This document shows, in pieces, positions 5,398 through 16,249 of a DNA stretch of 64,000 bases (position 1 is its first letter; the number at the start of each line of letters is the position of its first letter). The notes beneath the pieces were generated by a model that was not told the origin of the DNA, searched no databases, and was given only the letters and a program-made list of their open reading frames with translations. This DNA is from Campylobacterales bacterium (lineage in GTDB: Bacteria > Campylobacterota > Campylobacteria > Campylobacterales > Sulfurimonadaceae): positions 1 through 64,000 of the forward strand of contig JAFGVE010000028.1 of the NCBI GenBank assembly GCA_016938175.1. Direction: 5' to 3'. The position numbers and the translations under genes are program-made.

Positions 5398-6237
5398 ATG
5401 AAAAGCTCCATTATCGACAGCATTAAAGCGCTGCCACCTTTATCAAAAACCATCACTGACATCAACAGAATATATGCCGACGAAGAGGCTGGTATAAATG
5501 ATCTTGCAAAAGTTATTGAGCCAGATCCAATGATTGTGGCTAACTTGCTTAAAAGTGCCAATTCTCCTCTTTATGGATTTGGAAAAGAGATTCACTCTGT
5601 AGTACAAGCTGTTAGTCTTTTTGGTATGAGTATGACACGTTCAATTGCTCTTGGAAATTCTGTTCGTAAGCTTTTAAACGTAGATATGAAACCTTATGGT
5701 ATTACAAGTGATAAATTCGCTGAAATATCTTCTATGCAAGCAACACTTATTATGAAGTGGTACTCAAAAATAGACAGAGCAAAAGCAGAAAAGCTTTATC
5801 TTGCGGCATTCTTACAAGAGACGGGAAAGATTCTTATCTCTAGTGATATTATTCAAGAAGATGAAGATGTTTCATTTGCTTCAGAGATTGAATTGACAAA
5901 TAACATTGCACAGGTTGAGAAATCTTATGTTGACGTAACTAGTGGAGAGGTAACGGCTGAAGTTTTTTCTCACTGGGGATTTGACAAAGAGTTCGTTGAG
6001 ATGATTCGTTATGCGGACAATCCAAATGAAGCACCAGAAGAGGTAAGAGAGTTCTCTGCAGCGCTACACATAGTAAAAACAATTCTCCCTATGAATAAAC
6101 CTCTCTCAGAACAAGCTATAAACTTCGGTTTACGAAAAGCTAGAGATGCAGGGTATAACTATGAAATACTTGAAGATGTTGTTGATGATATGTTAGATGT
6201 TATTGAAGGACACACAGGTATTGAGGTATCTGAATGA
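5398..6237 (+). CDS. HDOD-domain signalling protein
   Basis: A 279-residue cytoplasmic protein with an HDOD domain over about residues 5-210: the opening LPPLSKTITDINRIYADEE, then the characteristic IEPDPMIVANLLKSANSPLYGF block and the VQAVSLFGMSMTRSIAL helix. HDOD proteins are catalytically silent relatives of HD phosphohydrolases that act in signalling, motility or stress regulation. There are no fused response-regulator, GGDEF or EAL domains. The stop overlaps the polA start (ATGA), so the two are translationally coupled, which is an unusual partner for a signalling protein. Confidence 0.88.
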   Translation: MKSSIIDSIKALPPLSKTITDINRIYADEEAGINDLAKVIEPDPMIVANLLKSANSPLYGFGKEIHSVVQAVSLFGMSMTRSIALGNSVRKLLNVDMKPYGITSDKFAEISSMQATLIMKWYSKIDRAKAEKLYLAAFLQETGKILISSDIIQEDEDVSFASEIELTNNIAQVEKSYVDVTSGEVTAEVFSHWGFDKEFVEMIRYADNPNEAPEEVREFSAALHIVKTILPMNKPLSEQAINFGLRKARDAGYNYEILEDVVDDMLDVIEGHTGIEVSE

Positions 6238-8966
6238 GTAAAACCGTTACGGTTATAGACACCTTTGGTTTTTTCTTTCGCAGTTTTTATGCGCTTCCAC
6301 AACACCTTAGTAATAAAGAGGGCTTTCCTACAGGGCTTTTAACGGGTTTTACCAACTTTATTGCTACACTTCAAAAAGAACACGACAGTGATTATCTTAT
6401 ATTTGCCATTGATACAAAAGGCAATACTTTCAGAAATGAGATAGACCCTAATTATAAAGCAAATCGTTCAGCACCTCCGCCAGAACTCTCACAACAGTTA
6501 CCAGTTGCTATAGAGTGGATAGACAAGATGGGTTATAAGACTCTTGGCATGCAAGGATATGAAGCTGATGATATGATTGCTACTGTTACACATCTCGCAA
6601 AACAAAAGGGCTATAAGGTTCGTGTTGTATCTCATGATAAAGACCTCTATCAGCTTATAGATGACGATAAAGTAACTATTGTTGATGCTATTAAACGTAA
6701 GAGTGTGAATGAGGCAATCTGTTTTGAGAAGTATGGTGTCACACCTAAGCAGTTTATAGATTATCAAGCTATACTTGGCGATAGCGCAGATAATGTTCCT
6801 GGTGTTAGAGGAATTGGAAAAGTCGGAGCTGAAAAACTTTTAAAAGAGTTTGGTTCACTTGATAATATTTATGCAAATATAGACTCTATTAAGGGGGCAA
6901 ACCAAAAAAAACTCATCGAGTCAAAAGAACAGGCATATATGTCAAAAGAGCTTGTAACACTTAGACATGATGTATTTGATTCTATAGATTTTGAAGAGTA
7001 TACAATGGATGTAGAACATCCTTTTTTAAATATCTATGATGAACTTGTAAAGTATGAACAAAATGCTATTTTACGTGTTTTACATGCAAAAAATATGGTG
7101 AGTGAAACACAACAGCAAGAGGCTCAGGCAAAAGCTATCCCATCACAGGATGAAAGTACTTGTGAACAGATAAGCGGACTTGATTTTAAAGCTACGCTTA
7201 TAACAGATGCAAAACAACTAGATGATATACTCTCAAAGATTCATGAGAACAGTGTTGTGGCTTTTGATACTGAGACAACAGGACTTGATTATGAAAAAGA
7301 CAAGCTTGTAGGTTTTAGTTTTTGTATAGATGAAGAAGAGGCTTTTTATGTTCCTTTTGCGCATTTTTATCTTGGCGTAGGGGAGCAGATAAGTGAAGAG
7401 AAAGTCAAGTCCGCAATACGCAAAATATTTACTGCTAATGTAATAGGACATAACATAAAGTTTGACCTTCATTTTGTTTCAAGATTTTTAGAAGATGACA
7501 ATCTGAAGATTTATGCTGATAGCATGATTTTAGCATGGTTGATAAATCCCGAATCAGCACTCTCTTTAGACAAGCTAAGTGAAAAACTTCTTGGACATAC
7601 TATGGTCTCTTTTAAAGATACTGTTAAAAAAGGAGATAACTTCGCTTCTGTCGCTTTAGAAGATGCTTGTGCATATGCCGCGGAAGATGCTTTTGTGACA
7701 GCTAAACTTTACAATCTTTTTTTGAGTAAGTTGGAACTTCAAGATGCTATGCATCTTATTGAAGAGGCAAAAGAGGTAGAGTTTCCTTTTATTGATACGC
7801 TTATGAGTATGGAGAGAGAAGGTATAGAAGTAGATGCTTCATTTTTAGAAGAATTTTTGGCAGAAGTACAGTCCACTTTAACAACGCTTACAAGTGAGAT
7901 TTATACCTTAGCAGGCGGAGAGTTTAACATTAACTCTACAAAACAACTTGGAGTTATCTTATTTGAGACCTTGGGACTTCCTGCTGGCAAGAAGACAAAG
8001 ACAGGTTACTCAACTGATGAGAAGGTACTTAGCTCATTAATAGATGCACATGAGATAATCCCTAAATTACTTGAATATAGAGAGGTATATAAGCTCTACT
8101 CTACATATATAGAGCCACTTCTTAAACTTTCAAAAGAGAGTGATGACTCTCGAATTCATACCTCTTTTGTACAAACAGGAACTGCAACTGGTCGTTTAAG
8201 TTCAAAAAATCCTAACTTGCAAAATATTCCAACAAGAACACCACTTGGTGCAAAGATTCGTCAGGCATTTGTGGCAGGAGATGGGAAAAAACTTATAGGA
8301 ATTGACTATTCTCAAATAGAGTTACGTTTACTTGCTCATTTTTCACAAGATAGTGTTTTAGTTGATGCCTTTAAACACGATAAAGATATCCACTTACAGA
8401 CTGCTATAGCACTCTTTGGAGAAGAAGAAGCGGCCGCAAAACGTTCAATAGCAAAAACCGTAAACTTTGGTCTTTTATATGGAATGGGACAGAAAAAACT
8501 CTCAGATACCCTCGGAATACCTACAAAAGAGGCAAAAGAGATTATAGAGAAGTATTTTGCTTCTTTTCCTACTGTCAAGAGTTACTTTAGAAGCATTGTA
8601 GATGGTTCAAAAGAGAGAGGATATATAGAGACTCTTTTAAAACGTCGTCGCTATTTTGACTATGAAAGTGCAACTCCAATGTTTAAGGCTGCTTATGAAC
8701 GCGAGAGTGTCAACTCTGTATTTCAAGGGAGTGCTTCGGATTTAATTAAACTCTCAATGAATAAAATTCATCAACTGATAAAGAGAGAAAAACTACCAGC
8801 TAAGATGCTTTTGCAAATTCATGATGAACTTATATTTGAAGTAGATGCAAAAGATGCTGAAAAACTTGCTGATAAGTTTAGAGATATAATGGAGTCCATT
8901 ATGGAGTTAAATATTCCCCTCAAGGCAAGTCTCAATATAGGTGATAATTGGGGAGAACTAAAATAG
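6234..8966 (+). CDS. polA: DNA polymerase I (5' nuclease, proofreading and polymerase domains)
   Basis: A 910-residue family A polymerase. The 5' nuclease domain (about 1-280) shows YEADDMIAT, SHDKDLYQL and GDSADNVPGVRGIG. The 3'-5' exonuclease domain (about 310-500) retains its catalytic motifs: FDTETTGLD, GHNIKFDLHF and the YxxxD of YAAEDAFV, so proofreading is probably active, unlike in several other lineages. The polymerase domain carries motif A (DYSQIELRLLAHFS), the O-helix (KRSIAKTVNFGLLYGMG) and motif C (QIHDELIFEV). It fills gaps, removes primers and works in repair. It overlaps the HDOD gene by 4 bases, and the next gene starts immediately after its stop. Confidence 0.97.
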   Translation: MSKTVTVIDTFGFFFRSFYALPQHLSNKEGFPTGLLTGFTNFIATLQKEHDSDYLIFAIDTKGNTFRNEIDPNYKANRSAPPPELSQQLPVAIEWIDKMGYKTLGMQGYEADDMIATVTHLAKQKGYKVRVVSHDKDLYQLIDDDKVTIVDAIKRKSVNEAICFEKYGVTPKQFIDYQAILGDSADNVPGVRGIGKVGAEKLLKEFGSLDNIYANIDSIKGANQKKLIESKEQAYMSKELVTLRHDVFDSIDFEEYTMDVEHPFLNIYDELVKYEQNAILRVLHAKNMVSETQQQEAQAKAIPSQDESTCEQISGLDFKATLITDAKQLDDILSKIHENSVVAFDTETTGLDYEKDKLVGFSFCIDEEEAFYVPFAHFYLGVGEQISEEKVKSAIRKIFTANVIGHNIKFDLHFVSRFLEDDNLKIYADSMILAWLINPESALSLDKLSEKLLGHTMVSFKDTVKKGDNFASVALEDACAYAAEDAFVTAKLYNLFLSKLELQDAMHLIEEAKEVEFPFIDTLMSMEREGIEVDASFLEEFLAEVQSTLTTLTSEIYTLAGGEFNINSTKQLGVILFETLGLPAGKKTKTGYSTDEKVLSSLIDAHEIIPKLLEYREVYKLYSTYIEPLLKLSKESDDSRIHTSFVQTGTATGRLSSKNPNLQNIPTRTPLGAKIRQAFVAGDGKKLIGIDYSQIELRLLAHFSQDSVLVDAFKHDKDIHLQTAIALFGEEEAAAKRSIAKTVNFGLLYGMGQKKLSDTLGIPTKEAKEIIEKYFASFPTVKSYFRSIVDGSKERGYIETLLKRRRYFDYESATPMFKAAYERESVNSVFQGSASDLIKLSMNKIHQLIKREKLPAKMLLQIHDELIFEVDAKDAEKLADKFRDIMESIMELNIPLKASLNIGDNWGELK

Positions 8967-9997: not shown

Positions 9998-11035
9998 ATG
10001 AATATCAGTTTTTTGGACTTAGATATCTATAAAGAGTCACAAATAGTTCCATACTTAGAGGGTGAATCTGGAATAGGAAAGACTTCCATCATCGAACAGT
10101 ACGCTAAAGAGCGTGAAATGGACTGTATCATCATGGGTGTCGCTTCTTTAGACCATATAGAGTTTTACGGAAGAACTGTTGCAACAGATGTTGTCGTTGG
10201 TGTTAATGATGAGAAGTTTACAGTCTTTAAAAAATCCTTACCAAGTTGGGTGGCTCGTATACTTGAAAATGACAAAAATAATAGAGAAACGCTTCTGTTT
10301 ATAGATGAGTTAAACCGTGCAGAACCGCAAAATCTTCAGAGTTTAATGAACTTAATTCTTAAAAAAGAGTTTGGTGCAGATAGTATACAGTTGCCGAACT
10401 CTTTATACATTGTTGCCGCTGGAAATCCAGTGGATGATGGAGAGTATCTTGTTGAGTCACTCGATAAAGCGATGCTAAGTAGAATGGCGATAGTAAAAGT
10501 CATTACGACTTTAGAATCATGGAAAAAGAACTACGCACTCAAGTATGACAAAAAGCACAATAGACAAAAAATACACCCGCTCATCATTACCTATCTTGAT
10601 GACAACCCTCATGATTTTGTACTAGCTAGCGCAGAAGATGATATGAGTGACCCTGGAATGGATCCAAGAAGATGGGACATGATTTCAAGACTGCTTTATA
10701 CTTACGAAAAAACTTCAAACAACTCTATAACTCTTGTGAATCTTCTCGCAACAGTCTCAAGCAAAGAGGTCGCTCCAAAACTTGCAAGCTATATTCACAA
10801 CGCAAATGTTTTGACATTTTCAAAAATACAAAAAAAGCTTGAAGCCTTTTTAACAGCCAACAGTGAAACAGATTTCAGAGCCTATTTACTTGAAGAGAAA
10901 AGTAGTTCAGACTATGTTGCACTTATAGACTCTATTGCATCAGAGTATAAAAGTGCACAACCTGTGACTCAGGTAAATATTTTGCGGCTGCTTTTTATGC
11001 CTTTGAAGCTCAAAGTATCACAGACGATATTTTAG
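9998..11035 (+). CDS. MoxR-type AAA+ ATPase (reading frame probably truncated by a frameshift)
   Basis: ATG at 9998 with GAGAGG at 9985-9990. The 345-residue frame has Walker A GESGIGKT (22-29), Walker B LLFIDE (99-104), sensor 1 AAGNP (140-144), an arginine-finger region DKAMLSRM (156-163) and a sensor 2 region MDPRRWDMISRL, the arrangement of MoxR/AAA_5 ATPases. Such ATPases remodel partner complexes and pair with VWA proteins, as in RavA-ViaA, CbbQ-CbbO and NorQ-NorD. Here the VWA partner is three genes downstream. The frame ends in an atypical QTIF tail, while the -1 frame stays open to 11223, just before the next gene, so the intact protein was probably 408 residues (see the tail entry). 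Confidence 0.85.
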   Translation: MNISFLDLDIYKESQIVPYLEGESGIGKTSIIEQYAKEREMDCIIMGVASLDHIEFYGRTVATDVVVGVNDEKFTVFKKSLPSWVARILENDKNNRETLLFIDELNRAEPQNLQSLMNLILKKEFGADSIQLPNSLYIVAAGNPVDDGEYLVESLDKAMLSRMAIVKVITTLESWKKNYALKYDKKHNRQKIHPLIITYLDDNPHDFVLASAEDDMSDPGMDPRRWDMISRLLYTYEKTSNNSITLVNLLATVSSKEVAPKLASYIHNANVLTFSKIQKKLEAFLTANSETDFRAYLLEEKSSSDYVALIDSIASEYKSAQPVTQVNILRLLFMPLKLKVSQTIF

Positions 11036-11223
11036 CTATTGTCTTAAAACTTAGCTCTTCTGAACACATTATGTCCATAAAAGTTGGACTTAATGGAGTT
11101 GATAAAGTAATAAATACTATTGATGAGAAATACAGCTTAGGTATTAGTAGTACAGTATCTGAGGGTTTAGTAGAACATATAGAGAAGACAAATCCTTTCA
11201 TTGCATCACTTATGAAACAATAG
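10978..11223 (+). pseudogene. Out-of-frame 3' tail of the MoxR-type ATPase gene
   Basis: The -1 frame relative to the ATPase is open for about 82 codons, reads KYFAAAFYAFEAQSITDDIL at its start and ends with TAG at 11221-11223, 9 bases before the next ATG. It has no start codon or ribosome site of its own and looks like normal helical protein. The frame must change between 10951, after the last upstream stop in this frame, and 11032. The A run at 10975-10977 and the five Ts at 10992-10996 are the likeliest sites. A sequencing or assembly error, a true mutation, or recoding would all give this picture; the T run is not a canonical -1 heptamer in the zero frame. Confidence 0.7.
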
Positions 11224-11232
11224 AGAGATACA

Positions 11233-12732
11233 ATGAGTGAAGCTTACTTGCATCAAAAATTGCTCCTTGCGTGTGGCAGTGGAAATATTGTAGCTGTCAA
11301 AGAAGCCTTAGATGCTGGAGCAAATCCAAACTTTAATATTAAAAAAGTGCTCAATCCTTTAGAAAAAGCTATTGAGCGTGATAATCATGAAATCATTACA
11401 CTTCTGTTAGAACATGGTGCTATTGTGAAAGCAAATGTTTTGCAAAAGGCGATAGAAAAAGATACAAAATATTTAGAATTTTTACTTCCAGACTTTTCAA
11501 ATTGTAGTGATAAAACACTGCTTATGGGAGTCTTACAAGCTGCTATAAATAGCTCCAATGTCTCACTCGCAAAAATGGTTTTAAACCAAGGAGCCAATCC
11601 AGCTTCATTACTCATTTATGATGTACGAAATATTGACTCTCCTGAGCTTTTGGAGTTGTTAATTCAAAATGGTTTAAACATACACGCTGAGAACAATATG
11701 CTTCTCTCTGAGTGGATGGGCTCTTCTTCTATGTCAGGAGGAGAGAAGTGGAAAGATACAAATGAGAAACTTTTAGCTTTTTTGTTTGAGTACTATATGC
11801 AAAGACCAGAGGCTATGAAAAAGTTTGAGTCTTTAAAATCCATAGATAAAAAACGACTCTTTCAAATAGGACTCTTCAGTAATAATCTGACAATGATGCA
11901 GTTTGCAATTCTTATAGGTGCAGATAAAAATGAAGCACTCAGTACAGTTTATTCGCAATACAATGCAAATAAAGATGGAAATATTGGAAGTATATATTCA
12001 ATTCTTTATACGAATAATGAAGCCGGAATTGTTAATGAAGACATAGTCAAGTACATACTAGACTCAGGAGTAGAGTTTAGTAAAACAACCATCGCAAGAG
12101 CAGTCCAGTTTAGCTACCAAGAAGTTTTAGATGCACTAAGTTGTATGGATGACTTAGAGTATGGGTATGAGATGGCCTACAGATTTGACAATACTGCCTT
12201 AGGTAATTACTTTGTAAAGAGAGGAGTTAGCCCTGAAGTCCAAAGTTATGTAGCTATGAAAGTCTCTGCTATTACAGGAGATATACAATCCTTACGTAAG
12301 GCTATACATGAGGGTGCAGATGTTCAAGCATTAGCTAGTAGTGTAATAGTAGAAATACTCAATAAAAATCAAAGAGAGACATTAGAGTATTTGTATGATT
12401 CAGGAGTAATTTTTGAAGAGAGTTTGAGTAAACACCTGCATGATGCTCTAAACTATCACAGTGCTTATGAGAGTGTTGCCTACTTTATTGAGTTAGGTTT
12501 TGACATTAGCGGTGTAAAAAACATTCCACCAAAGTTTAAAGAGCGTTACAGAGCATATAGTGATATGTGGGAGAGACGAGTACGTGATGTGTATGCGTAC
12601 ACAATTTACTTGGTAAAAGATATCTATCCAAAGTTAGAAGGAAAAGAGCAAGAGCGAGTTTTAAATACAATTGCCCAGTTATCATCTCTACCTTATGTGA
12701 TTCAAAAGTCTCAAGAGAGAGTAGAGCAGTGA
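11233..12732 (+). CDS. Ankyrin-repeat protein 1 of the MoxR/VWA operon
   Basis: A 499-residue cytoplasmic protein with no signal peptide. Ankyrin repeats are clear at the N-terminus: LLLACGSGNIVAVKEALDAG, AIERDNHEIITLLLEHGA and AKMVLNQGANPAS, followed by degenerate helical repeats including MQFAILIGADKNEAL and AVQFSYQEVLDALS. The C-terminal half contains DLEYGYEMAYRFD and ends with LSSLPYVIQKSQERVEQ. Both segments recur in the next gene, so the two are paralogues. Ankyrin repeats bind proteins, and I infer an adaptor or substrate-binding role for the neighbouring MoxR ATPase and VWA protein. Its TGA overlaps the GTG start of the second ankyrin gene. Confidence 0.8.
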   Translation: MSEAYLHQKLLLACGSGNIVAVKEALDAGANPNFNIKKVLNPLEKAIERDNHEIITLLLEHGAIVKANVLQKAIEKDTKYLEFLLPDFSNCSDKTLLMGVLQAAINSSNVSLAKMVLNQGANPASLLIYDVRNIDSPELLELLIQNGLNIHAENNMLLSEWMGSSSMSGGEKWKDTNEKLLAFLFEYYMQRPEAMKKFESLKSIDKKRLFQIGLFSNNLTMMQFAILIGADKNEALSTVYSQYNANKDGNIGSIYSILYTNNEAGIVNEDIVKYILDSGVEFSKTTIARAVQFSYQEVLDALSCMDDLEYGYEMAYRFDNTALGNYFVKRGVSPEVQSYVAMKVSAITGDIQSLRKAIHEGADVQALASSVIVEILNKNQRETLEYLYDSGVIFEESLSKHLHDALNYHSAYESVAYFIELGFDISGVKNIPPKFKERYRAYSDMWERRVRDVYAYTIYLVKDIYPKLEGKEQERVLNTIAQLSSLPYVIQKSQERVEQ

Positions 12733-13895
12733 CAGCAGAGTTAGTCTCGAAAGCTTTAATGCAAGCGTGTGAAGAGGGCGATGTCGTAGCTGTCAAAGAG
12801 TCTCTTGCAAAGGGTGCTAAAACCACATCGCTTTTTAAGTACACACTTTTTAACCTTGAGAGTACAGAGATACTACAATTACTTTTAGAGAGTGGTTTTA
12901 ACATCTATGCTGATGTAAATGAGATTGTGAGTCACTGGATGGGTGGATGGAGGGATAGTAGACCTACTAAACTTGTCTTACTTGATTTTTTCTGTAGCTA
13001 TTATTTGCAACAAGCAGATGCACTGGAGAGGTTTAGCACACTCATCCTTAACAAGTCTCTCTTGTTTAGACTCGGTTTAGATGATAATAACATCAACATA
13101 ATGAAGTTTGCGGTTTTAATAGGAATGCAAAAGAGTGTAGTCCTTTTCTCAGCCTTAAATAGATACTACACAAATAATAGTACTTATAAAAAAATTGACT
13201 ATGAGATAATTGAGTACTTACTGAGTTTAGAGATAGAGCTCAATGAAGAGAATATAGCAAGAGCCGTTTGTTTTGGGTATACAGAGATTATAGAGACTTT
13301 AAGTTCTATAGATGAGTTAGAGTATGGGTATGAGATGGCGTATCTGTACAATAAAGCAGATATGTGTCAGTACTTTATAGGGCGCGGTGTATCTAAAGAG
13401 GCACAGAATTTTACAAAAATGAAAATAGCTGCTATGAGAGGAGATGTAAAAATTTTACGTAAGGTTGTAAATGATGGAGCAGAGTTAGCAATGATTGATG
13501 AAAAAAGTCTTGTAGAAATTATAAGGCAAAACCGAGCTGAAGTACTTGAGTATCTTTACGAGTCTGGTTTTGTTTTTTCACACTCTTTGCAAGAGCATTT
13601 TTATGAGCTTATGCACAACTACACAGCCTATGATGCACTCTCTTATCTTTTCTCTATCGGTTTTGATATTACTACTCTTAAAAGTTTGCCAAGAGAGTAC
13701 AAAAAACACTCTCCTGCTTTTGCAGATATGTTTGAACGAGGTATAGGGGATGTTTTTGACTATACGCTTTACTTGGCAAAAGAGCTCTACCCAAATGTAG
13801 ACCAGAGCCAAAAAGAGTTACTGCTTCAAAGAGTGGCAGAACTTTCAACACTCCCTTACGTAAGAAAAAAGTCTGAGGAAAAATCACGTGAGTAG
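12729..13895 (+). CDS. Ankyrin-repeat protein 2 (paralogue of the preceding gene)
   Basis: GTG start at 12729 overlaps the previous stop (GTGA). The 388-residue product aligns with ankyrin protein 1 over nearly its whole length: LMQACEEGDVVAVKESLAKG at the N-terminus, ELEYGYEMAYLYN in the middle and LSTLPYVRKKSEEKSRE at the end. It lacks about 110 residues corresponding to the extra N-terminal repeats of the first copy. The pair arose by tandem duplication with later loss or gain of repeats. No enzymatic motif is visible. Its stop overlaps the GTG start of the VWA gene by 8 bases, so all three downstream genes are translationally linked. Confidence 0.78.
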   Translation: MTAELVSKALMQACEEGDVVAVKESLAKGAKTTSLFKYTLFNLESTEILQLLLESGFNIYADVNEIVSHWMGGWRDSRPTKLVLLDFFCSYYLQQADALERFSTLILNKSLLFRLGLDDNNINIMKFAVLIGMQKSVVLFSALNRYYTNNSTYKKIDYEIIEYLLSLEIELNEENIARAVCFGYTEIIETLSSIDELEYGYEMAYLYNKADMCQYFIGRGVSKEAQNFTKMKIAAMRGDVKILRKVVNDGAELAMIDEKSLVEIIRQNRAEVLEYLYESGFVFSHSLQEHFYELMHNYTAYDALSYLFSIGFDITTLKSLPREYKKHSPAFADMFERGIGDVFDYTLYLAKELYPNVDQSQKELLLQRVAELSTLPYVRKKSEEKSRE

Positions 13896-15483
13896 TGACA
13901 AAGAGTATATGTTTTCAAAAGAGAGTATCACTGCTGCTATAGAAAATCCACAAAGTAGTTTTCAAAAAGTTTTTAAAGAGAGTGTTATAGCTATGATAGC
14001 CTCTAACAAAAATGAGCTTCTCTGGTATGTAAACTTTTTGAGTAGATGTGAGTATGAGTTTCATTTTAATGAGAGCTTTGTTTCATCACTCTACTTTAAC
14101 GGTAAACACTTTGTTATAGCTATTAACCCCGCGATACTTAGCATACTGCACACAGATGAGGTCATAGCCATACTCAAACATAGTGCAGGGCACATCATAA
14201 ACCATCACTTACGAAGAGGACTTGCGTATAGCAGTGTAGACAAAGATGTTGTACAAACAGCAAAAGATATAGTCATAAACGGAAGTCAAGATGTCCCATA
14301 CATAAAAGACTTACCTCGTAGTGGAGTCTACAGAGACTCACCTGTTGGGACACTTTTTTATGAGACACTCAAAGAGAAGTACACCATTGAGAGTTATGAG
14401 GTTGGCAGAGAGTTTGAGTACTACATAGAGCTTATGTTAAATACCAAGCAAGAAGAAGCCTCTTCATGCAGTAATGATTTAGAGAGTGAAGAAGATGATG
14501 AATTAGACTTTCAGTCTGAGAGTTCAGATGAGCGAGATGAAAATAGTAAGCCCTCAGAAGATGAGGCAGATGAAGATGCACAGAATGAGGGGAGTGTAGA
14601 TTCTGAGAGCTTTGAAGAGGGTGGTGAACAGAGTGAGGCTTCTGATGAGGGAGAAGAGGATGACTCAGATGAAGAGAACACCGACATAGAGTCCCTAGCA
14701 CAAAGAACACTTGAGTCCTTACGTAAGGGTGAGTGTAGTTTAGATAGCCACGAGTTTGGAGAGCAACTTCAAGAGAGTGTTGGGTTGGATGATGCTACAT
14801 TGGAGTCTTTTATGGACACAACGCTTCAAGAGATGATGCAGAGCTCCACAGAGTTTGCCAGAGGATTTACTCCAAGTGAAGCAAGTGAGTCTCTTACTAA
14901 AATAGAAAAAAGAAAAGCGCATAAAGATTGGAGAAGGGTCTTTAACAAAAGAGTGCGTAACCACTTAACAAACTCCACACGCTACAGACATCCAAACAAA
15001 TCAAGACAGCATCCAATTTATCCAGATGACCTAGACCTCTACGGCTACAGCCCTGCTAAAAAACCAAAGATAGGCGTTGTGCTTGATATTTCAGGCTCAG
15101 TCGATGATGCACTACTTAGTGCTTTAATGTCTGAAGTCCAAGCTATCCAGAGAAAGTACGCCATAAAGAGTGTTACATTAGTGCAAGTTGATGCTGAGGT
15201 TAAAACCATAGAGAAGTTTGGTGTTCGTGATAAGTTTGTCGCAAGAGCTGGAAGTGGCGGAACAGTAATGGAGCCAGGTTTTAAAGCGCTTTTAAAACAG
15301 TCAAGCCGTAATATCCCAGAGATAATCATATGTGCAACAGATGGGGAGATAGAAGCAAGGTTTAGCGAAGTAAAACTACCAAGTAAACTCCAAGTCATCT
15401 GGTTACTTCCAAAAGGCAAAAAGCTTATGTTTGACACAAGTGCATACCCAAAACATCAGATGAGTGTTGTAGAGTTTTTTTAA
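13888..15483 (+). CDS. DUF2201-type VWA protein with degenerate metallopeptidase motif
   Basis: GTG start at 13888. The 531 residues contain three parts. The N-terminal DUF2201-like domain (about 1-180) has HSAGHIINHH at 98-107: the three zinc-ligand histidines of HExxHxxxxH are at 98, 102 and 107, but the catalytic Glu is Ser99. A strongly acidic Ser/Glu/Asp linker covers about 188-268. The C-terminal VWA domain (about 392-531) has an intact MIDAS motif DISGS (400-404) with Thr459 and Asp485. DUF2201 proteins pair with MoxR ATPases. The domain is probably a zinc-binding but non-proteolytic scaffold; the VWA domain should bind partners through Mg2+. Confidence 0.83.
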   Translation: MSSDKEYMFSKESITAAIENPQSSFQKVFKESVIAMIASNKNELLWYVNFLSRCEYEFHFNESFVSSLYFNGKHFVIAINPAILSILHTDEVIAILKHSAGHIINHHLRRGLAYSSVDKDVVQTAKDIVINGSQDVPYIKDLPRSGVYRDSPVGTLFYETLKEKYTIESYEVGREFEYYIELMLNTKQEEASSCSNDLESEEDDELDFQSESSDERDENSKPSEDEADEDAQNEGSVDSESFEEGGEQSEASDEGEEDDSDEENTDIESLAQRTLESLRKGECSLDSHEFGEQLQESVGLDDATLESFMDTTLQEMMQSSTEFARGFTPSEASESLTKIEKRKAHKDWRRVFNKRVRNHLTNSTRYRHPNKSRQHPIYPDDLDLYGYSPAKKPKIGVVLDISGSVDDALLSALMSEVQAIQRKYAIKSVTLVQVDAEVKTIEKFGVRDKFVARAGSGGTVMEPGFKALLKQSSRNIPEIIICATDGEIEARFSEVKLPSKLQVIWLLPKGKKLMFDTSAYPKHQMSVVEFF

Positions 15484-15640: not shown

Positions 15641-16249
15641 TTGCCTGAATGGATATATGTAGCAATAACTATAGTTATTGGTGTAGGAATAATTAGTTGG
15701 TCACTAACTGTAGTCTTAGAAGACATTTTAAAATTGAATTCGATTAAAAAATTTTCTGAAGATTTTAAAGCTAGTGTTAAACATTCTCAACCGAGTTGGG
15801 AAGAAATTAAAGATATAGCTTCAACAAGGGGTTTAACACAATCTGACATTCAATTTACAATAAGAAAATTTCATCGAGAAATTTTAGCTGGTAGAGAAGC
15901 TACTCTTAGCGACTATAAAGAAAAAGTAAAAAGTTACATTGACTTGTATAAAGAAGAAGAACCTTTTGAAGGTTTACCTAATGAAGTTCGTATTCATCTC
16001 GAAAGATTAAGAGAACAAATCGATGGGAAAGAACACCTATTGGAGCCATTAACAAGTCAAATTAAAGATTTGCTAACAATTTATCAAAAAGAAAAGCGTT
16101 ATCAAAAATATTATACTACAGGTAGTTTTTTTATCGGTTTAATTGGATTAGGTTTTGCATTTTATACGTATTTTGGTTTACCGGCTTTAAATGAAAAAGA
16201 GCCCGTGAAGACAACAGTTAATGCTTTAGAAGTTAATGTGACTAAATAA
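15641..16249 (+). CDS. Unknown protein with N- and C-terminal membrane helices
   Basis: TTG start at 15641 with GAAAGGAAA at 15625-15633. The 202 residues have a membrane span near the N-terminus (about 5-27), a charged helical central region with predicted coiled-coil character (about 30-160) and a second span at about 163-183 (GSFFIGLIGLGFAFYTYFGL). I recognise no family. Both ends would be held in the membrane with the central domain on one side. It is isolated between the VWA operon and ldh, has its own promoter-like element and leader hairpin, and its codon choice looks more AT-rich than its neighbours, so recent acquisition is possible but unproven. Confidence 0.7.
   Translation: MPEWIYVAITIVIGVGIISWSLTVVLEDILKLNSIKKFSEDFKASVKHSQPSWEEIKDIASTRGLTQSDIQFTIRKFHREILAGREATLSDYKEKVKSYIDLYKEEEPFEGLPNEVRIHLERLREQIDGKEHLLEPLTSQIKDLLTIYQKEKRYQKYYTTGSFFIGLIGLGFAFYTYFGLPALNEKEPVKTTVNALEVNVTK

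Follow-up and report, generated by a model that had tools for sequence, protein, structure and literature searches.

An ankyrin-containing MoxR–VWA gene cassette with a patchy and mobile distribution in Sulfurovum

Genes and features of the locus

The stretch of DNA analysed here, referred to below as the window, comprises 64,000 nucleotides from the 2.26 Mb draft genome of a Campylobacterales bacterium. Four consecutive plus-strand open reading frames (ORFs) within it form an operon (Table 1), and the ORF coordinates agree with the first-pass annotation of this DNA both in the placement of the four ORFs and in the exact overlaps of 4 and 8 bases between the last three. Pfam assigns an AAA_5 domain to the first product, Ank_2 to the second and third, which we refer to as Ank1 and Ank2, and DUF2201_N together with the VWA-like DUF2201 domain to the fourth. 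Among named relatives, those closest to the operon are in metagenome-assembled genomes (MAGs) of uncultured Sulfurovum. The four genes had been read as a coupled four-gene operon; their linkage in one operon stands, but that reading missed both the three-gene norm of the relatives and a break in the ATPase ORF. Directly after the operon, at 15641-16249, lies a gene for a 202-aa protein of membrane- or coiled-coil-like sequence; a search of 59 other genomes found no match to it.

Table 1. Coordinates of the operon genes and of the features within them, numbered from the first base of the window.
Feature	Position	Strand	Basis
MoxR-type AAA+ ATPase, shortened ORF, 345 aa	9998..11035	+	Pfam, motifs, alignment to relatives
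One-base deletion breaking the ATPase frame (compared with six intact relatives)	10986..10992	+	Nucleotide alignment
ATPase C-terminal tail in shifted frame, stop-free, protein-like	10993..11223	+	53-59% identity to relatives
Ank1, full-length ankyrin solenoid (predicted), 499 aa	11233..12732	+	Pfam; AlphaFold2 mean pLDDT 88, pTM 0.71
Ank2, 388 aa; shorter ankyrin paralogue without the first ~92 residues	12729..13895	+	Pfam, alignment
DUF2201 protein, 531 aa: zincin-like N-domain, acidic linker, C-terminal VWA	13888..15483	+	Pfam, alignment
Zincin-like N-domain, residues approx. 30-185; H[SN]AGH replaces HExxH at residues 98-102	13975..14442	+	
Acidic low-complexity linker, residues approx. 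186-270; length differs among relatives	14443..14697	+	
VWA domain with complete MIDAS: D400-x-S-x-S, T459, D485	15055..15480	+	

By its domain and motif content, the product of the first ORF can be assigned to the MoxR AAA+ ATPases. AAA_5 scores 33.9 bits (cut-off 22), with AAA_3 under its own cut-off (20-22 bits versus 27), and the protein carries Walker A (GESGIGKT), Walker B (LLFIDE) and sensor 1 (GN) motifs along with an Arg-finger region (LSRM) and a sensor 2 region (DPRRW). The Walker, sensor and Arg-finger motifs are invariant in six intact relatives. Intact ATPases of this type are 409-410 aa long (L007, L008, L040-L043 and L117-L119), and the window protein matches them in frame only as far as residue 330 or so. 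The conserved C-terminal tail (AAAFYAFEAQSITDDILAIVLKLSSSEHIMSIKV...) then resumes in another frame and runs to a TAG (11221-11223) that precedes the Ank1 start by 9 bases; nucleotide alignment with the relatives shows a single base to be missing at ~10986-10992. The complete C-terminal part that relatives possess is absent from the window ORF, and the 197-base gap that follows this ORF is not intergenic, since the conserved tail reads there in the shifted frame. We considered programmed frameshifting at the lesion and set it aside, as no good slippery heptamer was seen by eye and the relatives need none.

The loss of a conserved tail through a one-base deletion, together with the long branch of the window in the cassette tree described below, could mean that the window copy is a decaying remnant whose ATPase was inactivated by the frameshift and whose ankyrin and VWA genes are drifting. 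We regard this as unlikely: the ankyrin and VWA frames are open, and the shifted tail keeps a dN/dS of about 0.11-0.22 relative to its relatives, with synonymous sites near saturation, which points to a frame break that is either recent or a sequence or assembly error. Decay of this kind would concern the window copy and is compatible with the other explanations considered below, which address the intact cassette.

The second and third genes encode two paralogous ankyrin proteins, as had been proposed, and share 39% identity. This value disfavours Ank2 as a recent tandem copy of Ank1, though the tree is compatible with either view (AU p 0.14). Ankyrin repeats are protein-binding modules, and the AlphaFold2 model of Ank1 (nine relatives) is a confident all-helical solenoid; in Foldseek it matched ankyrin and DARPin structures, with low TM-scores. 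Over long distances the ankyrin protein is the most divergent of the operon products: between the window and L007, identity is 78% for the ATPase, 61% for the VWA protein and 54% for the ankyrin protein. Among close relatives its dN/dS is 0.19-0.36, indicating purifying selection with no sign of diversifying selection.

In the fourth protein, DUF2201 (PF09967) scores 48.1 bits against a cut-off of 26.4, and the MIDAS pattern DxSxS-T-D is invariant in nine VWA sequences. The active zincin motif HExxH was not found in the aligned cassette proteins, which have H[SN]AGH without the catalytic Glu; judged from the alignment, the zincin-like N-domain has lost this residue and carries a dead zincin motif, which the first-pass annotation did not note. 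The AlphaFold2 model of this protein was poor, with a mean pLDDT of 39.

A linked three-gene unit that moves between species

In full-genome profile searches, orthologues of the ATPase, ankyrin and VWA genes were found each time in the identical 9 of 135 genomes of the genus, and no genome among the 135 had one or two of the three. Relatives are also present in three uncultured Sulfurovum MAGs, two of which have complete loci (L007 and L008). The third, MAG_03, has two VWA genes at the ends of two contigs (L006, 160-1788; L009, 27-1532) that are 98% identical, and reflects either two cassettes or mixed strains. The order ATPase–ankyrin–VWA holds in every complete locus, with 1 to 10 bases between ATPase and ankyrin genes and an overlap between ankyrin and VWA genes. 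Only in the window do two ankyrin genes follow the ATPase; the other complete loci have a single one there, and in L008 a further short ankyrin gene lies upstream of the ATPase.

The first-pass annotation would have taken the association of ankyrin with MoxR and VWA genes as accidental had ankyrin homologues usually lain far from those genes, and this is not the case; given that the three occur in the same 9 of 135 genomes and never singly, they are linked rather than together by chance. Its observation that no enzyme lies nearby for the pair to activate also extends beyond the window, as no enzyme is constantly adjacent in the 10 further loci sampled. More distant ankyrin proteins of Campylobacterota match part of the profile only (E about 1e-9 or weaker), and those whose surroundings were checked had neither MoxR nor VWA genes within 1.5 kb; they were taken as generic rather than as members of the cassette. 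G516 and G517 are close by RpoB (96%), yet their VWA proteins are only 71% identical.

Outside the three genes, the flanks are mostly unrelated from locus to locus. Recurring flanks are confined to the sister loci L043 and L118, a rhodanese gene near a few loci and a thioredoxin gene downstream of three. DNA homology usually reaches at most about 190 bp beyond the ATPase start on the upstream side and 31-57 bp past the VWA stop on the other. Across seven species of the genus, cassette dS is 0.06-0.43, far under that of PolA (0.68-2.6) and RpoB (0.38-0.92) for the same pairs, which shows horizontal movement, and the concatenated cassette tree conflicts with the RpoB+PolA tree. Holding the window genome with its marker-tree relatives was rejected (AU p 2e-56), as was holding it with G009 alone (7.7e-10). 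The window PolA shares 85% identity with its G009 counterpart and 56% with that of G515; for the ATPase, the corresponding values are 75% and 78%. For the window's own copy, ancient duplication followed by differential loss could stand in place of transfer, but it leaves the low dS among the other species unexplained. The unit is thus a mobile accessory cassette by its patchy presence, its unrelated insertion sites and a divergence far under that of core genes. No integrase or transposase belonging to the cassette was found, and an IS256-like transposase near L042 is not common to the other loci.

Some loci vary on this arrangement. The thioredoxin gene, with about 95% DNA identity, lies 3' of the cassette in L041 (13455-13817) and L119 (6005-6367) and directly after the VWA gene in L042; these three loci are otherwise unrelated apart from the cassette, and the gene may be an optional fourth member travelling with it. 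In L042 (G009), a second VWA gene fragment of about 93 C-terminal residues (7553-7846) lies beside the intact cassette, which is adjoined by the transposase (6108-7310), suggesting repeated insertion or loss. Between L043 (G010) and L040 (G003), the ankyrins are 97% identical and the ATPases only 94%, a reversal of the usual order that suggests recombination inside the cassette. On the 3' side, homology ends at a short conserved segment in the 31-57 bp past the VWA stop (L040-L043 and L119), which contains a small inverted repeat (GCGTA..TACGC in L119) and may be a terminator or an insertion end.

Comparison with known MoxR–VWA systems

For NorQD and CbbQO, the genes of the client are adjacent to those of the machine. 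NorQ-NorD, RavA-ViaA and CbbQ-CbbO all combine an AAA+ ring with a VWA protein, as the cassette does, but unlike it they are two-component systems with a known endogenous client. NorD consists of an N-domain, a disordered linker and a VWA domain with MIDAS (PMC9976466), a layout that matches that of the cassette VWA protein. The cassette would work in the manner of a MoxR-VWA pair and falls within the MoxR and DUF2201 families. No description of its arrangement of MoxR together with ankyrin was found in the open-access literature searched, which is weak as evidence of absence.

A second point of comparison is the chromosomal MoxR-DUF2201 pairs of Campylobacterota (e.g. L044). Like the cassette, they encode MoxR directly followed by a DUF2201 protein with a VWA MIDAS, and they have no HExxH in the copies checked. 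In contrast to the cassette, they have no ankyrin gene, are much more widespread, encode a shorter ATPase (about 333 aa) and a shorter VWA protein (about 360-400 aa), and form a separate clade. Uniting the cassette with this clade was rejected for the VWA protein (AU p 0.005) and for the ATPase (p 0.042), and on these sequence comparisons the cassette VWA protein is not derived from the phylum's own pairs, a point that the earlier reading missed. The genome of the window (G000) itself has two more MoxR-DUF2201 pairs free of ankyrin, at C13:81527-83589 (L044) and C13:107977-110044 (L045), one of which lies a few kb from nifHDK-like genes.

The best-scoring homologues found for the cassette VWA protein and ATPase are MoxR and zincin/vWA pairs of phages (Bacillus phages AR9 and BpSp, Alteromonas phage AD45), which resemble the cassette in having adjacent genes and ATPases of similar length (399-435 aa), and differ in keeping HExxH and in having no ankyrin gene found nearby. 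The cassette VWA profile gives phage proteins 103, 96, 81 and 74 bits, compared with 45 or less for chromosomal pairs. A careful VWA tree groups the cassette with phages (support 100/99), and a wider tree with 24 viral-contig proteins places it on the phage side (SH-aLRT 93). Taken with the rejected chromosomal clade and the adjacent pair in AR9 and BpSp, these results would fit a phage-type MoxR/zincin-VWA pair that was captured with an ankyrin gene and is used against related phages or kept as cargo. We nonetheless hold such a capture to be very doubtful. The cassette branch is very long, an ankyrin gene lies beside the pair in 0 of 80 viral contig loci, and placement of the cassette on the non-phage side, with plasmid and other bacterial copies, is compatible with the data (p 0.45) under thin sampling of bacterial relatives from other phyla. 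Because that placement fits, we do not claim direct descent from phages. Searching viral contigs with the cassette's own ATPase and VWA alignments found no relative. Matches to phrog_1297 and phrog_1314 were dropped as proof of phage kinship, as chromosomal pairs score even higher.

In MoxR-vWA ternary conflict systems, too, a third component shares an operon with MoxR and vWA, and the VMAP, iSTAND and TERNS3 systems among them have been described mainly from multicellular bacteria (PMC7159879, PMC8195603). Despite this common logic, it is extremely improbable that the cassette belongs to these systems: effector and EAD domains are theirs, whereas the third component of the cassette is a pure ankyrin solenoid. 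Pfam and NCBIfam detected no VMAP, iSTAND, effector, EAD or peptidase-effector domain in the operon proteins, and nothing follows the VWA domain in the VWA protein, which is a DUF2201 one.

Candidate function of the cassette

The most natural reading of this gene set is an AAA+ remodeller with the ankyrin protein as its putative adaptor. The MoxR AAA+ ring, the DUF2201 VWA partner and the ankyrin solenoid would form a single machine, in which the VWA domain would sit on the ring and grip the client by its MIDAS, by analogy with NorQ-NorD (PMC9976466), and ATP hydrolysis would remodel the client. Recognition of that client would be provided or broadened by the ankyrin protein. The client itself is probably a protein that the host meets intermittently, for example one from a phage or some other invader, and not a fixed enzyme of metabolism; a foreign or conditional client is the likelier of the two because the unit is self-contained, patchy, recently transferred and placed among unrelated genes.

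Our preferred explanation, held tentatively, is that the operon is a copy, with a damaged ATPase, of a mobile cassette for one such machine, with ankyrin-aided recognition and a client that is probably met intermittently, such as a phage or invader protein. Strict co-occurrence and the fixed order of genes that are close, abutting or overlapping argue for a single unit, as homology limited to the three genes, low dS and conflict between cassette and marker trees do for its movement. The invariant Walker A/B and MIDAS residues, the confident ankyrin model, the divergence of the ankyrin protein over long distances and the NorQ-NorD mechanism are all consistent with this explanation. Weighing against it are the poor VWA model, the want of an effector domain or a good anti-phage profile match, loci that are not defence islands, purifying rather than diversifying selection on the ankyrin gene and the frameshifted ATPase of the window.

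Movement of the block between Sulfurovum species suggests that it is an accessory system, perhaps one of defence, in which recognition would fall to the ankyrin protein. Defence is a plausible role for the cassette and our leading guess if the client is foreign or conditional. A role in stress or defence had been proposed for the operon from the outset, and its recent horizontal spread supports this indirectly, but the flanks are mostly housekeeping and no defence profile matches well. Known anti-phage profiles (PADLOC) gave only weak partial matches, to VakA (E 1.6e-4 over 28 residues) and to the ankyrin region of PDC-M72A (E 8e-7). A location in defence islands was rejected, since only a few of the 75 flanking proteins look defence-related (methyltransferase or restriction-type matches). 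It is quite unlikely, in our estimate, that the cassette is an immune-like mobile system of three components, with a MoxR/pseudo-zincin-VWA engine that is related to the phage pairs and directed by an exchangeable ankyrin subunit, whose duplication, as in the window and L008, would broaden its range.

The mostly housekeeping nature of the flanks, and the thioredoxin gene that accompanies the cassette in three loci, fit a chaperone, for stress or for maturation, that serves an endogenous complex with genes elsewhere (compare RavA-ViaA and respiratory complexes), and MoxR-VWA pairs of known function do act on endogenous enzymes (PMC3893208, PMC10585395, PMC9976466). The ankyrin protein would then be a client-specific adaptor, and the cassette would be exchanged for a condition-specific benefit. 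Such a chaperone nevertheless seems rather unlikely for a self-contained block found in just 9 of 135 genomes, with no constant neighbour save thioredoxin in those three loci and a rapid horizontal turnover that is unusual for a core maturation factor.

MoxR-VWA machines are widespread and their clients are known for few. The cassette presents a machine of this kind with a dedicated ankyrin third subunit, moving among species as an almost bare three-gene block, and it should therefore be possible to transfer its function to a laboratory host and test it there. If defensive, it would be a new architecture among AAA+-based bacterial conflict systems; if it is a chaperone, its spread as an accessory cassette would be unusual for one.

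A minor observation concerns the annotation of phage homologues. DUF2201 zincin/VWA proteins are labelled 'HNH endonuclease' in the phage records H27, H30, H31, H34 and H38 and in the PHROG family phrog_1314. Pfam finds VWA and metallopeptidase-like domains in relatives of the proteins so labelled, and the label is apparently a propagated misannotation.
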